The notes beneath the pieces are model-generated. The model made no database searches and was not told the origin of the DNA. It was given only the letters and a program-made list of their open reading frames with translations. From positions 1-29,768 of IMG/VR virus record IMGVR_UViG_3300044613_002764: a stretch of 29,768 nt of DNA. One strand, given 5' to 3'. Origin of the DNA: a virus. Position numbers and translations under genes: made by a program. This document shows positions 16,189 to 29,768 of the stretch, in pieces. How positions within the stretch are numbered: position 1 is the first letter of the stretch; every line of letters begins with the position of its first letter.

Positions 16189-16374
16189 TTAGTTCCAATC
16201 AGAATCCTTCCAATCATTGTCCCCAAGTCTCCGAGACATGTCGTCTTGATTGGAGAATCCAATGACATCGGCATCCTTCGGTATTACGACGCTAACTTTT
16301 TTGAGATCAGCCATTAACTGTCCCCACACTTTTCTGTCTTGCCCTAGATCATCGTTTTCAAAATTCACTAACAT
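16189..16374 (-). CDS. Unknown acidic protein, 61 aa, AT-rich
   Basis: The chosen start is ATG 16374 (MLVNFENDDLGQD), preceded by AGATAGGCG; a TTG six codons upstream is also possible. It contains a beta-strand (LKKVSVVIP) and ends in an acidic tail DDMSRRLGDNDWKDSDW. The gene is richer in A and T than the neighbouring structural and lysis genes and is flanked by spacers, like a small accessory gene. No family is recognised. Confidence 0.6.
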   Translation of the reverse strand: MLVNFENDDLGQDRKVWGQLMADLKKVSVVIPKDADVIGFSNQDDMSRRLGDNDWKDSDWN

Positions 16375-16449
16375 GTTGTCGCCTATCTTCAATTGTCGGT
16401 GTAGACATTTGTCGAGTACCTACCGTAAAGGGATAATTACCTATAAGTT

Positions 16450-20676: not shown

Positions 20677-20841
20677 CTATGCTCCGTCGTCCTCGATTTT
20701 TCTCGCCAGATCAATCAGCTGCTGCTCACCGATGATGTCGATTTCGTCGCCGCACGTCAGCTGCCAGATGCCTGGTCGCACGACATCCAGTGTCACATGG
20801 TCACAGCTGGCGATGATGTCCGCAGCTCGTCCGACAGTCAT
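20677..20841 (-). CDS. Unknown small protein, 54 aa
   Basis: A short ORF starting MTVGRAADIIASC at ATG 20841, overlapping the stop of the membrane ORF upstream (ATGA). It is rich in acidic residues, with a predicted C-terminal helix (EQQLIDLARKIEDDGA). It ends 20 bases before the RusA start. Coupling by ATGA and a clean frame support it being real. No family is recognised. Confidence 0.6.
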   Translation of the reverse strand: MTVGRAADIIASCDHVTLDVVRPGIWQLTCGDEIDIIGEQQLIDLARKIEDDGA

Positions 20842-20972
20842 TTCGGAAACTCCTCCTCGTCTATATCATCAATCTCCAGGTCGCTGACGACTATGGCCGC
20901 ATACGCGACCATAATCCCCAAAATGACGATAACTGCCAGACCGACTTGCCACATGCTTGTATTATTCATCAT
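20838..20972 (-). CDS. Small single-pass membrane protein, 44 aa
   Basis: A short ORF starting MMNNTSMWQVGL at ATG 20972 (or 20969), 4 bases after the SSB stop. Residues 8-29 (WQVGLAVIVILGIMVAYAAI) form one membrane helix, followed by an acidic tail DLEIDDIDEEEF. The GAGGAGGA within the tail codons serves as ribosome site for the next ORF. It sits inside the recombination operon, where a membrane protein is unexpected. Function unknown. Confidence 0.6.
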   Translation of the reverse strand: MMNNTSMWQVGLAVIVILGIMVAYAAIVVSDLEIDDIDEEEFPK

Positions 20973-20976
20973 CGCA

Positions 20977-21378
20977 TCACTCATCAGCAAATGGATCATA
21001 TTCACCCTGCGCAGCTGGCTCAGGCTGTCGGTTCGTCGATGTGTTCGCGCCTGCTTCGTCGCGTGGTCTGTCGAGCGCGTTCACGTTATCTGCGACCACC
21101 TCAATCGATTCACGCTTGTTGCCGTTCTGGTCCTGCCATGTGCGCTGCTCCAGCCGACCATCGACTGCGACCAGACGACCTCGACCGATGTACTCGCTGA
21201 CGTACCGTGCCACCTGACCCCAGGCTCGCACGCGAAAGAAATCCGCGTCTGGTCCCTCTGCTGGTTTGATGCGCTTGTTGACTGCGATGCTGAACTCGAC
21301 GACGTCCTTTCCTGTGGATGTCGTGCGCAGCTCTGGATCTCGCGTGAGTCGTCCGATGAGAATTGTTCTGTTAACCAT
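20977..21378 (-). CDS. ssb: Single-stranded DNA-binding protein, 133 aa
   Basis: The true start is ATG 21378 (MVNRTILIGRLTRDPE), 8 bases before the end of the SWIM gene; the longer frame is shadow. The OB-fold is clear: RTTSTGKDVVEFSIAVN, FFRVRAWGQVARYVSEYI, GRLVAVDGRLEQRTW and RESIEVVADNV. The tail is a Gln/Pro-rich linker and an acidic tip DPFADE like the DDDIPF tip of bacterial SSB that recruits partners. It coats single strands in replication and ERF recombination. Confidence 0.95.
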   Translation of the reverse strand: MVNRTILIGRLTRDPELRTTSTGKDVVEFSIAVNKRIKPAEGPDADFFRVRAWGQVARYVSEYIGRGRLVAVDGRLEQRTWQDQNGNKRESIEVVADNVNALDRPRDEAGANTSTNRQPEPAAQGEYDPFADE

Positions 21379-22838: not shown

Positions 22839-23024
22839 TTATTTCGTTCCTTTCTGTCCTGGCATCTTGCCTGTTCTGATGAAATGTTCTGCTCTGTAGC
22901 GCAGACCCTGGGGACTCAGCCCCGCCTCTTTCGCGATGCGAGAAAATGGTCGCAGGTTACGCTGAATAATCAGCCACTGCGCCGCTTCCTCGACCAGCTC
23001 GTTCATGGTTTTTGTGTTAGCCAT
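22839..23024 (-). CDS. Small HTH DNA-binding protein, 61 aa (leaderless start)
   Basis: Chosen start is ATG 23024 (MANTKTMNELVEEAAQ); the -10 box 23032-23037 is so close that transcription should begin at or near this ATG, so the message would be leaderless. A start at 23042 is ruled out because it would lie upstream of the -10. A helix-turn-helix is seen at FSRIAKEAGLSPQGLRYRAEHF, with G at the turn. It is the first leftward gene and lies beside the operator palindrome, so it may regulate both operons. It has no recognisable dimerisation domain. Confidence 0.72.
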   Translation of the reverse strand: MANTKTMNELVEEAAQWLIIQRNLRPFSRIAKEAGLSPQGLRYRAEHFIRTGKMPGQKGTK

Positions 23025-23031
23025 CCACCAT

Positions 23032-23037
23032 AGTATA
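23032..23037 (-). promoter_or_regulatory. -10 box of the leftward early promoter
   Basis: TATACT on the minus strand, 7 bases before ATG 23024. A -35 hexamer is weak: TCTACA lies 15 bp upstream (4 of 6 matches) and overlaps the left arm of the palindrome. The promoter would drive the whole leftward programme. A weak -35 over an operator suggests control by a DNA-binding protein. Confidence 0.6.
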
Positions 23038-23040
23038 CAC

Positions 23041-23059
23041 ATTTTCTCAGATTGTAGAA
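23041..23059 (+). repeat. Direct repeat with 23141-23159, operator half-site
   Basis: ATTTTCTCAGATTGTAGAA at 23041 matches ATTTTCTAACATTGTATAA at 23141 at 16 of 19 positions, with a period of exactly 100 bp. The second copy overlaps the -10 of the rightward promoter. Each holds ATTGTANAA, which is also the arm of the palindrome. Confidence 0.6.
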
Positions 23060-23076
23060 AAAGTTTTTATACAATC
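23050..23076. promoter_or_regulatory. Operator-like 27-bp near-perfect palindrome
   Basis: Arms GATTGTAgAAAAA and TTTTTaTACAATC are complementary at 12 of 13 positions around one central G. It lies across the -35 area of the leftward promoter, between the divergent operons, and has the size of a dimer operator. A related half-site overlaps the rightward -10. Confidence 0.72.
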
Positions 23077-23129
23077 GTCTGGGACTTTAGACCTAGATTG
23101 AACTATTTTTGATAAATTGTTTCCTCCGA

Positions 23130-23160
23130 TTGACAAAAACATTTTCTAACATTGTATAAT
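23130..23160 (+). promoter_or_regulatory. Rightward promoter
   Basis: Both hexamers are the consensus: TTGACA at 23130-23135 and TATAAT at 23155-23160, spaced 19 bp, a bit longer than the ideal 17. Transcription would begin near 23167, giving a short leader before the ATG at 23200. The -10 overlaps an operator-like half-site (ATTGTATAAT). Confidence 0.75.
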
Positions 23161-23199
23161 GATTTCATCAGCCGCGAACGATGGCTGAACGGAAACAAA

Positions 23200-23349
23200 A
23201 TGAACAACACTTACATGGTAACTTTTACACTTGGATTTCACAAGGGATCAATGGTTGTTAATGCAATCAGCCAACAAGACGCAATCAACCTAGTTCAAAA
23301 GGATTATGAGGGCTTCACTTTGAAATCAATCAAGGCAACCAAAATCTAA
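23200..23349 (+). CDS. Unknown small protein, 49 aa (first rightward gene)
   Basis: Start ATG 23200 (MNNTYMVTFTLGF) is preceded by CGGAAAC at a good distance; frames that begin earlier lie within the promoter. It has strands MVTFTLGF and KGSMVVNA and a helix QQDAINLVQKDY, ending in FTLKSIKATKI, which looks like a compact beta-alpha-beta fold. More AT-rich than the following genes. It is the first gene from the rightward promoter, so it would be made first. No family is recognised. Confidence 0.7.
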   Translation: MNNTYMVTFTLGFHKGSMVVNAISQQDAINLVQKDYEGFTLKSIKATKI

Positions 23350-23357
23350 CAACTATC

Positions 23358-23376
23358 GGGCAGGTAATCCCTGCCC
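23358..23376 (+). other. GC hairpin between rightward genes 1 and 2
   Basis: GGGCAGG and CCTGCCC form a seven-bp GC stem with a five-base loop in the spacer after the first rightward gene. No U-run follows, so it is a processing or stability element or attenuator, not a full terminator. It ends 25 bases before the next start, whose ribosome site AGGAAACAG is strong. Confidence 0.5.
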
Positions 23377-23401
23377 ACATCCACACACAGGAAACAGAAC
23401 A

Positions 23402-23785
23402 ATGAACAAAACACTCTACTGCGAAACCTCTGGCAACCCGACGCCAGAATTCCTCATCGAACTCGCCAAAATGCTCGGCGGACGACCCTGGGCGAATCAC
23501 GGCAAATTCCGCATCTACTTTGACGAAGGACGCAAAACACAGGTCTACTTGAACTTTGACGCTGGCTGGTCGCTGAACATCTGGCTCGAACCATGCGGAC
23601 AGACCGCAAAATGGTACGCGAATCGCAAGCGCGATCTGCAAGAACAGTACACTCGTCACATCCGAGTCGCCATCGGCAGCCATCATTTCGGCGAACCTGT
23701 CACTGCCTACTCGCCAGAGACGAATGCGGATTTCGAGAAAATGGTCGCCGAGTTTACAGCTAAAATGGATCAGGTGTGCGCATGA
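23402..23785 (+). CDS. Unknown protein, 127 aa (second rightward gene)
   Basis: Starts MNKTLYCETSGNPTP with a strong site (CACAGGAAACAG) upstream. It is alpha/beta, with RIYFDEGRKTQVYLNFDAG strands, an EPCGQTAKWYANRKRDL stretch, and a C-terminal helix FEKMVAEFTAKMDQ. The next gene overlaps by ATGA. No family is recognised. As an early gene of a takeover-type operon it may act on a host target. Confidence 0.72.
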   Translation: MNKTLYCETSGNPTPEFLIELAKMLGGRPWANHGKFRIYFDEGRKTQVYLNFDAGWSLNIWLEPCGQTAKWYANRKRDLQEQYTRHIRVAIGSHHFGEPVTAYSPETNADFEKMVAEFTAKMDQVCA

Positions 23786-24132
23786 ACGAAACACTGAAAA
23801 ACACCATCGTCGCCGACCTGCAGAAACTCATCGACGACTCGCGTCTCGATGGCTGCGCATGCACCAGCGGCGACTACCAGAACCCGCCTGAGCAGTGCGA
23901 CGCATGCTGGTCGCAGCTTGAATTGTTAGACCTCAGAGAATGGAAAGACAGTGCCGAGGATCAGCTCGACGAGTGCAATGTCTACCTGAACTGGGGATCA
24001 GCTTCACACTTTGTCATGGAATGGTATCGCGCCTATGTCGCCGACATGGCTGCGCACGAACTCAGTGACGAAAACCTGACCGTCCTTTTCATCTATCACA
24101 CTTTGCCAATACTAGCCGAGGAACTAAAATGA
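23782..24132 (+). CDS. Unknown acidic protein, 116 aa (third rightward gene)
   Basis: Starts at ATG 23782 (MNETLKNTIVADLQK), overlapping the previous TGA (ATGA), which is preferred over an upstream GTG. It is acidic and helical, with four Cys near the N-terminus (GCACTSGDY and QCDACWSQ, pattern CxC and CxxC) that could bind zinc. The C-terminal helices (ASHFVMEWYRAYVADMAA) are amphipathic. No family is recognised. Confidence 0.72.
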   Translation: MNETLKNTIVADLQKLIDDSRLDGCACTSGDYQNPPEQCDACWSQLELLDLREWKDSAEDQLDECNVYLNWGSASHFVMEWYRAYVADMAAHELSDENLTVLFIYHTLPILAEELK

Positions 24133-24479
24133 ACACTAAACTCTACTGCGTTATCACACGCGACGAAAACGAAAACATCAGCAACATCCGCGCCAGCGCG
24201 ACCGACCAGCACCTGGGCGACCAGGTCGTCCCGCTCGCAGGACCTCTCGACATCCTGCTCATGTGCGAGTTTACAGCTCGGTTTCTTGATGCCAAGCATT
24301 TCGGTGGCGACATGCTGTCACAGTTCATTCTGGCGGCTGTGAACCAGTTCGCCAGCTTTGAATTGCTGTGCCAGTGCGTTGAAATTGCTGAGTCTGGAAA
24401 TGCGACTCACGGCGCGCTCAAAGTCGCCGCATTCGCATCTGAATACATGACCAATAACATCGAGAAAATCCTAAAATGA
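24129..24479 (+). CDS. Unknown protein, 116 aa (fourth rightward gene)
   Basis: Starts MNTKLYCVITRDENENI, overlapping the previous TGA (ATGA). A beta start is followed by helices (LDILLMCEFTARFLDAKHF, SQFILAAVNQFASFELL, AFASEYMTNNIEKI) rich in Ala and Phe. Its opening resembles the MNKTLYC start of the second gene, though no relation is evident further in. No family is recognised. Confidence 0.72.
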   Translation: MNTKLYCVITRDENENISNIRASATDQHLGDQVVPLAGPLDILLMCEFTARFLDAKHFGGDMLSQFILAAVNQFASFELLCQCVEIAESGNATHGALKVAAFASEYMTNNIEKILK

Positions 24480-24712
24480 AATCAACCTACTCACAAAAAC
24501 TCAGCGACGTCGTCCTCTCGCAAGACGAAATTGATCGCATCGAAAACCTGACCGAAACCCAGCGACAGCAGATGAACAGTGAAATGCTGCAGCTGCTCGC
24601 TCGCTCGAAATCCCTGTCGACTGTTAAGTCGCACGACATGGACTGGCTTGGCGCCTGCTCGATGGTCCTGCTGGTCGCTGCAGTGATTTTCGTCGGGATT
24701 CTGCTGCGCTGA
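24476..24712 (+). CDS. Small tail-anchored membrane protein, 78 aa (last rightward gene)
   Basis: Starts MKSTYSQKLSDVV, overlapping the previous TGA (ATGA). The first 55 residues are a charged helical region with coiled-coil character (EIDRIENLTETQRQQM). The last 20 (ACSMVLLVAAVIFVGILL) form one membrane helix that ends at the C-terminus, as in tail-anchored proteins. The cytoplasmic part could act on a membrane partner, for example as an exclusion or inhibitor protein. The terminator follows 25 bases later. Confidence 0.72.
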   Translation: MKSTYSQKLSDVVLSQDEIDRIENLTETQRQQMNSEMLQLLARSKSLSTVKSHDMDWLGACSMVLLVAAVIFVGILLR

Positions 24713-24737
24713 AAATTGACCCTTCAGAAATAAAGAT

Positions 24738-24766
24738 AGCCGCCGATAATGGCGGCTTTTCTTTTT
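24738..24766. terminator. Intrinsic terminator between convergent operons
   Basis: AGCCGCC and GGCGGCT form a seven-bp stem with loop GATAAT, followed on the plus strand by TTTCTTTTT. It ends the rightward operon. On the minus strand, after the last leftward gene stops at 24779, the same stem is followed by ATCTTTATTT and may terminate leftward transcription too. Confidence 0.9.
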
Positions 24767-24778
24767 GTGGGATGCTCG

Positions 24779-25186
24779 TTAAACGTCTTTCGCTGGCGGC
24801 AGTTTCGCTGGAACGAAATCGCAGTAGCTGTTCACCAGCTTTTGATTCGTGGCAGTCAGCGCCAGCATGCTGCGATGTGTCGGTGTGATGCCTATCTGCT
24901 CGCTGCCGTCCATGATGTTTTTGTAGGTCAGCGCCGACACTCCGATGTTGTTGTTGTCCTCGGCAAAATTCAATGCGACCAGCACCTCGTGTTTCTCGAG
25001 TTTTACGATTTTAGAAATCAGATCGCGCTCGATGTCCTCGATGCCATGCACGTCGATTTTCTGCCCATCAGCCGATGTGCCGATTTCCTCACCGTCCTGC
25101 AAAATGACGTCCTTAGTCCGCTTGACAACTTGCTCGGTCAGTAGATTGAAAATGATTTCGAGTGTTTTGGTTTTCAGTTCCATCAT
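24779..25186 (-). CDS. Unknown protein, 135 aa (last leftward gene)
   Basis: Starts MMELKTKTLEIIFNLL, with the ATG overlapping the upstream TGA (ATGATGG). Mainly helical with LTEQVVKRTKDVILQ, DIERDLISKIVKLEKHEV and a C-terminal Pro/Lys tail KLPPAKDV. It may be a tail fibre assembly factor or a small virion protein, as it is the last gene of the tail region, but no family is recognised. It ends 12 bases before the shared terminator. Confidence 0.7.
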   Translation of the reverse strand: MMELKTKTLEIIFNLLTEQVVKRTKDVILQDGEEIGTSADGQKIDVHGIEDIERDLISKIVKLEKHEVLVALNFAEDNNNIGVSALTYKNIMDGSEQIGITPTHRSMLALTATNQKLVNSYCDFVPAKLPPAKDV

Positions 25187-29500: not shown

Positions 29501-29768
29501 GCGCTAGGATCGCAGGGATCGTAAACCGATGGCGTGTAAACTTTTGATGCGCTGCAGCTGCCTGTCGCGTACAATGGCGTGGCGAGATAGTCGATGTAAT
29601 TTGGTCCGACTCCATTCGATGTCACGTCTACGCCGCCCAGCGTCGTCGACAGTGTGCCGTTGACGTACACTTGCAGCGAAGTCCAGGTCGTTCGATAGAG
29701 ACTGCCTGTCAACTTTGTATAAATCTTGAGACCGAGAATGCGGACCTTAATCGAGACAGTCGACAAAA
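26551..29768 (-). CDS. Tail fibre/tip protein, remaining part of 1162 aa gene
   Basis: This is the main part of the gene that begins at ATG 398; the frame runs from the join to the stop at 26551 and gives residues 92-1162. It has Cys-rich segments (LDPCTDEYDDGYIDAYY; VCLCPPPSVPIPSCPEGE), many beta strands, and near the C-terminus repeats typical of Asp-box (BNR) propeller proteins: SDNGLVF and, right at the end, SDDGITF. Asp boxes occur in glycan-active or glycan-binding proteins. It likely forms the tail tip or receptor-binding fibre. Catalytic residues for a glycosidase were not identified. Confidence 0.75.
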   Translation of the reverse strand, partial: LSTVSIKVRILGLKIYTKLTGSLYRTTWTSLQVYVNGTLSTTLGGVDVTSNGVGPNYIDYLATPLYATGSCSASKVYTPSVYDPCDPSAMEYVTEAEANQTITAGWRFQDETNAWTTLPCAVWTASIPTSGSCPYNLSFGSEISVADTDSIIISTRSYQKTERTYDGRRALMQRVVGECVGEGGSTIVYDEIVQGYCLDPCTDEYDDGYIDAYYVESWSESHGGAARAIPNLERAIVRFNSDYKALWRRFDFPEVRGSATRNCTVGAVTVNTGGSQVVYADLGPDFLEVVTNATSDVEDAFPATIYTQANWSKGKSYSKTWSYEGYTVCLCPPPSVPIPSCPEGEVLSWTCTNIAPTDTNLNESEGIAITFPSSVDTLAGYQGHADMLMRYTGSWVNPHWNIAYHRDDWDVDGASQPWEDYWGPIKEQWLYNAALPSNPRTRNSQISSVLEIDNGNQPFLDAFFGGFRWIGSSRFKVLTMTQPSAITLSTSRPGVWTANDCTVTLGANIVVTGFTGSNTYIELDMAQWTADPFMLLTKARQVVLAWSTTNVSRIEVSFYGQDNATNYIASSPGTYDLPTGIQLKYSGTWAIDNGYSIISGITDTGVDQLASGVSSAYMSNPETVVGFQLGKGRQFAKLRFRITPTNPANPVTINFPTFNLESTHPLVYWENSRAASMLWADGPNHRYGNLTWYSPILGFQDPPLLTGMGTPNTIVDALAFKYRIVQGNGGASLASTITTDLSSLYDSYEGQSIAVADKFSNSYVLPKGTNDDFRLALINSFSEIPPLAAFPYKKRLTTDWSATGSYAQVVYDHVQDGRYLISNASAAAKLQTPAAVDSGSAVSVPPTGWYIWQFNPVLDNTETDWRIVSSGDIYAKARPWHGWFCLLRSARCRLSLDIDFASNVHAAAYVDNSGNVLIRKSDNGLVFSTVNTLALSATSCAIRIDRQSTDQKIYIVAEINKSIKLYKSNQLGEAFTLMRTIANGVKPTFIIGRDGNRYIYWIDGASIKGQITDRADTILQASVTAVASGVDDECIAVDEDVTNGGNRRLVLIDVESGSLTQRTSDDGITFS
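29642..29768. repeat. Terminal direct repeat, right copy (circular join)
   Basis: Identical to bases 1-127. Removing one copy gives a circle of 29641 bp in which the large tail gene is intact. Confidence 0.95.

Follow-up and report, generated by a model that had tools for sequence, protein, structure and literature searches.

The genome encodes a rightward operon at positions 23200-24712 of the window, by which we mean the whole 29,768-base stretch that was analyzed. Five ORFs make up this operon, and the last four are coupled by ATGA overlaps at 23782, 24129, and 24476. Together with the elements that flank it, the locus comprises:

22839-23015, minus strand: 58-aa HTH-like protein, whose gene opens the leftward early transcript
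23042-23061, plus strand: operator-like repeat O_L, TTTTCTCAGATTGTAGAAAA, at the promoter from which the 58-aa HTH-like gene is read leftward
23080-23093, strand not given: 14-nt block TGGGACTTTAGACC, conserved in relatives, located between the divergent promoters
23120-23139, plus strand: operator-like repeat O_R1, overlapping the operon -35 box
23130-23160, plus strand: rightward promoter, TTGACA-19 nt-TATAAT (-35 box 23130-23135, -10 box 23155-23160)
23142-23161, plus strand: operator-like repeat O_R2, overlapping the operon -10 box
23168-23188, plus strand: hairpin in the 5' leader of the operon mRNA (folding prediction)
23200-23349, plus strand: ORF1, 49 aa, accessory and doubtful gene
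23402-23785, plus strand: ORF2, 127 aa, orphan protein
23782-24132, plus strand: ORF3, 116 aa, strongly acidic, with CxC...CxxC, mostly helical in its model
24129-24479, plus strand: ORF4, 116 aa, orphan protein
24476-24712, plus strand: ORF5, 78 aa, with one C-terminal hydrophobic segment, a candidate tail anchor
24738-24766, plus strand: terminator (stem 24738-24757 plus T-run), shared with the convergent late genes

The metagenomic record (IMG/VR IMGVR_UViG_3300044613_002764; 29,768 bases) probably represents a complete, circularly assembled phage genome of ~29.64 kb, given a direct terminal overlap of 127 bases (1-127 = 29642-29768). This is a common assembler k-mer size, so the overlap may be something other than a biological terminal repeat. 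Recognized genes include those for both terminase subunits, the portal, the major capsid protein, and an endolysin, along with Erf-, Gam-, SSB-, and RusA-like proteins; all are on the minus strand. IMG/VR scans provided five relatives: L002 (UViG 3300032335_000904), L003 (UViG 3300044805_000260), L004 (UViG 3300046009_010636), L005 (UViG 3300042516_003430), and L015 (UViG 3300044630_005899). With the window, these are the six genomes referred to below. In bacterial genomes, ORF3 had no relative and the one terminase match, a distant one, fell in a Cyanobium MAG; on this basis the phage was not assigned to a host.

Followed around the circular map, the leftward genes begin at 23015, traverse the whole genome, and stop at 24779. 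The operon alone fills the gap from 23015 to 24779; the early genes diverge from it at one end, and the late genes converge on it at the other. The initial annotation had described five genes here, the last four of them coupled, as the only ones on the plus strand. The coordinates and the three overlaps were reproduced, and every other tiled gene lies on the minus strand; as for the count of five, ORF2-ORF5 are well supported and ORF1, which has no relative, is doubtful.

Judged from the related sequences, ORF2-ORF5 are under purifying selection. Where computable among the related genomes, dN/dS is 0.08-0.19 for ORF2, 0.16-0.29 for ORF3, 0.29-0.6 for ORF4, and 0.23-0.47 for ORF5. Small orphan ORFs are frequently wrong calls, and ORF1 lacks any relative, but dN/dS values well below 1, the third-position bias seen for ORF2 and ORF3, the ATGA coupling, and the conserved promoter and terminator make it extremely improbable that the ORFs are spurious. 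The dN/dS values reject this idea for ORF2-ORF5 and leave ORF1 in doubt. An antisense ORF (23330-23794) is nearly open in the relatives as well; the plus strand is favored because the ORF2 plus frame shows the third-position bias.

The first gene of the operon is swapped or missing between relatives, which shows that the operon is modular in content, at least as read from these genomes. ORF1 has no relative in the five related genomes or elsewhere in IMG/VR, hence its doubtful coding status; a different ORF occupies its position in L002, and the position is empty in L003-L005. ORF2 is present in five of the six genomes (83-95% identical). In L015 it is replaced by an unrelated 159-aa ORF (L015:9525-10004) with no detectable similarity to it; this ORF has a weak match to phrog_9792 (E 0.003), and no wider relatives of it were found. 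No paralogy was detectable among ORF2, ORF3, ORF4, and the 159-aa gene of L015. By eye, the starts of ORF2 (23402-23423) and ORF4 (24129-24150) are alike in the window, with 19 of 22 bases identical; ORF2 begins differently in L003-L005, which suggests recombination. A GC-rich hairpin lies between ORF1 and ORF2 (23357-23377), and L002 has it too. Gene-by-gene comparison of the window with its five relatives shows that the early region is mosaic overall, so the operon is one variable module among several. Elsewhere in the window, none of the five related genomes holds a relative of a 67-aa ORF on the minus strand (16189-16392).

ORF3, ORF4, and ORF5 occur in all six genomes. ORF5 is 83-88% identical, and ORF3 and ORF4, at 43-83% and 27-88% identity to the window, are among the most divergent genes. 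Both fall into the same two clades, the window with L002 and L003 versus L004, L005, and L015; identity of the second clade to the window is 43-46% for ORF3 and 27-31% for ORF4. Because the clades switch together, the two proteins may work as a pair, but plain linkage explains the pattern too. The cysteine pairs pointed out earlier in the third protein (C25-x-C27 ... C39-xx-C42) are invariant in all six ORF3 orthologues, which in both clades are strongly acidic (net charge -12 to -17, pI 4.05-4.49). At about -14 charges per 100 residues, ORF3 ranks second in acidity per residue among the 50 genes of the genome. Two further short, strongly acidic ORFs lie at 20677-21005 (54 and 55 aa, about -13 and -14.5 charges per 100 residues). 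Residues 59-77 form the lone hydrophobic segment of ORF5 (mean hydropathy 2.74), in agreement with the description of the last protein as tail-anchored; we regard the segment as a candidate anchor.

The operon promoter is the sole 12/12 match to TTGACA/TATAAT in the genome. No 12/12 match occurred in 20 simulated genomes, in which matches of at least 11/12 numbered about 0.55 per genome. Both hexamers and the unusual 19-nt spacer are identical in all six genomes. Our promoter scan was limited to spacers of 16-18 nt and therefore missed this promoter. The optimal spacer is 17 nt, and since 19 nt exceeds it, promoter strength is uncertain; of the strong consensus promoter originally proposed, it is the hexamers that stand. 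The leader hairpin is predicted at -9 to -10 kcal/mol in five genomes with differing stem sequences, and L002 carries the window's version. At the other end, the terminator that had been said to close the operon is real: it was found by scan and is present in all six genomes, and two of the seven stem pairs have changed on both sides between relatives, with pairing preserved at 100%. Placed between convergent genes, it probably stops both transcripts. An Rfam search over the region gave one sub-threshold RNAI match at the terminator, taken as chance, and a tRNA search found no tRNA in the region.

Three copies of the 20-base motif TTTTCTCnnATTGtanAAA start at 23042, 23120, and 23142, at a spacing constant in the six genomes (O_L to O_R1, 78 nt; O_R1 to O_R2, 22 nt). 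When the window is scored with a matrix trained on its five relatives, the three repeats rank top, the third barely above the best unrelated site (15.6 versus 14.5 bits). The direct-repeat scores were reached by 0 to 5 of 200 simulated controls. Part of the likeness of O_R1 and O_R2 is promoter constraint, because they contain the -35 and the -10 box, respectively. The conserved 14-nt block TGGGACTTTAGACC has a single exact copy in the window. The adjacent 58-aa gene is present in all six genomes (74-100% identical), and weak matches are the whole basis of its HTH assignment. From its position and the adjacent repeats, we infer that the protein may regulate both divergent promoters. The left site is different in L003 and L015, reading TGACAAA-N7-TTTGTCA (L003:9828-9970 and L015:9345-9496 versus window 23016-23165), and the HTH protein of the same two genomes differs past the putative recognition helix (QYMRTGKLP for HFIRTGKMP). 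This fits, but does not prove, a joint change of protein and left operator.

As first reported, the operon proteins carry no known domain: no ORF had a match above chance in Pfam, PHROGs, NCBIfam, or PADLOC. These libraries include no dedicated anti-CRISPR or anti-restriction set, and the lack of any Acr or Aca sequence match in them or in the PDB is to be read accordingly, as none is a full Acr set. ORF2-ORF4 had no match among PDB sequences, and tblastn of ORF2-ORF5 against phage records, including Microcystis phage Mae-JY24, found nothing. AlphaFold models of ORF2 and ORF3 were poor (pLDDT 47 and 60), and fold searches with these low-confidence models gave chance matches only. Structure prediction for ORF2 and ORF3 and the sequence searches placed no operon protein in a known family.

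What the sequences do establish is a host-type promoter, coupled genes, a terminator, coding constraint across ORF2-ORF5, a set of three operator-like repeats, and a modular gene content. We see about an even chance that this is an early accessory operon under HTH control that serves host takeover or counter-defense. On entry, host sigma-70 RNA polymerase would transcribe the operon immediately, and the small proteins would bind host factors, most likely blocking defense or redirecting host functions. The divergent HTH protein would then build up, bind the repeat at its own promoter as well as the two covering the -35 and -10 boxes, and shut down both promoters. The inner membrane would be where ORF5 acts. 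ORF3, being acidic, probably helical, and possibly a metal-site protein, may be the best single candidate for a DNA-mimicking inhibitor of a DNA-binding defense enzyme, although as a lead from composition only it must be considered doubtful. The locus had been said to bear the usual marks of host-takeover or anti-defense genes. An accessory, host-interacting role is supported indirectly, by the modular first gene, the fast divergence of ORF3 and ORF4, and an early-type promoter set among operator-like repeats. Also in favor of the early-operon reading are the neighboring Gam-, Erf-, and SSB-like early genes and the conserved acidity of ORF3. Anti-defense activity itself gains no direct support, no protein having matched a family in the libraries searched and no structural match having reached significance.

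Other roles can be envisaged. The operon and the early genes are transcribed away from each other, and the intervening HTH gene and operator-like repeats resemble a temperate switch; ORF5 is predicted to be a small membrane protein. The operon might then be a superinfection-exclusion or lysogeny arm, expressed in a dormant or carrier state, in which ORF5 and its partners exclude related phages. This is unlikely, as no integrase, partition gene, or CI-like repressor was found among the genes scanned (several matchless small genes could hide one), nor had any operon protein a significant HTH match. The neighboring Gam-, Erf-, and SSB-like early genes might instead point to accessory functions in replication, recombination, or nucleotide metabolism that are not directed at the host. 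Such an assignment is quite improbable given that the operon lies on the opposite strand, that its proteins have no metabolic or DNA-processing match, and that its first gene is replaced or missing in relatives. Finally, the shared clade switch of ORF3 and ORF4 could reflect a co-inherited, interacting pair resembling a toxin-antitoxin system, with ORF5 as a membrane effector. Operon neighbors also move together by linkage, and with no match to a toxin or antitoxin family we consider this very unlikely.

The early accessory operon favored here is of a kind already known, and its protein families are new. The suggestion that the locus is an undescribed system was overstated: what can be seen in the six related genomes is a set of orphan proteins encoded in one operon, and uncultured phages commonly have such operons. 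New are the three operator-like repeats, the swapped first gene, the two ORF3/ORF4 clades, and the conserved acidity of ORF3. A bolder version, which we consider rather unlikely, is that ORF2-ORF5 and the first genes swapped in by relatives represent several new anti-defense families under a three-operator HTH switch that ties their early burst to the onset of replication gene expression. If the counter-defense reading is right, the locus would offer a defined slot, conserved in six phage genomes, for collecting and testing swapped counter-defense candidates; ORF3, with its conserved acidity, and the variable first gene would be concrete places to begin. Otherwise, this is an orphan operon of the ordinary sort, belonging to an uncultured group of phages.

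Comparison with described phages and regulatory systems gives several partial likenesses. Among phage records, Microcystis phage Mae-JY24 has the nearest terminase large subunit (47% identity), but tblastn detected no match to ORF2-ORF5 in it. Lambda-type immunity regions share with this locus a small HTH protein and divergent early promoters with multiple operator-like copies; they differ in that no CI-like repressor or integrase was found here and the rightward genes are orphans. ORF3 resembles T7 gene 0.3 Ocr and other acidic DNA-mimic anti-restriction proteins in its acidity and in being mostly helical in its low-confidence model. Ocr is similar in size to ORF3 and has a higher charge than the approximately -14 per 100 residues of ORF3, and we know of no Cys motif in Ocr, unlike ORF3. 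Acidity alone does not define a mimic, and ORF3 has no PDB sequence match or significant Foldseek match to a known DNA mimic (pLDDT 60 model).

Closest are the Aca-controlled anti-CRISPR operons, in which a consensus early promoter carries repressor sites within the core promoter (PMC9410906). As in acr-aca operons, small, presumably early proteins are encoded here behind a consensus promoter with putative repressor sites in it and a small HTH gene alongside (PMC9410906). O_R1 and O_R2 overlap the -35 and -10 boxes in all six genomes, the boxes themselves constraining the sequence. The repeats here are for the most part direct repeats, the searches turned up no Acr or Aca sequence match, and the HTH-like gene (22839-23015) is divergent, on the opposite strand and outside the operon. 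Although membership fails on the position of the HTH gene, the acr-aca layout is the nearest functional analogy for this operon.
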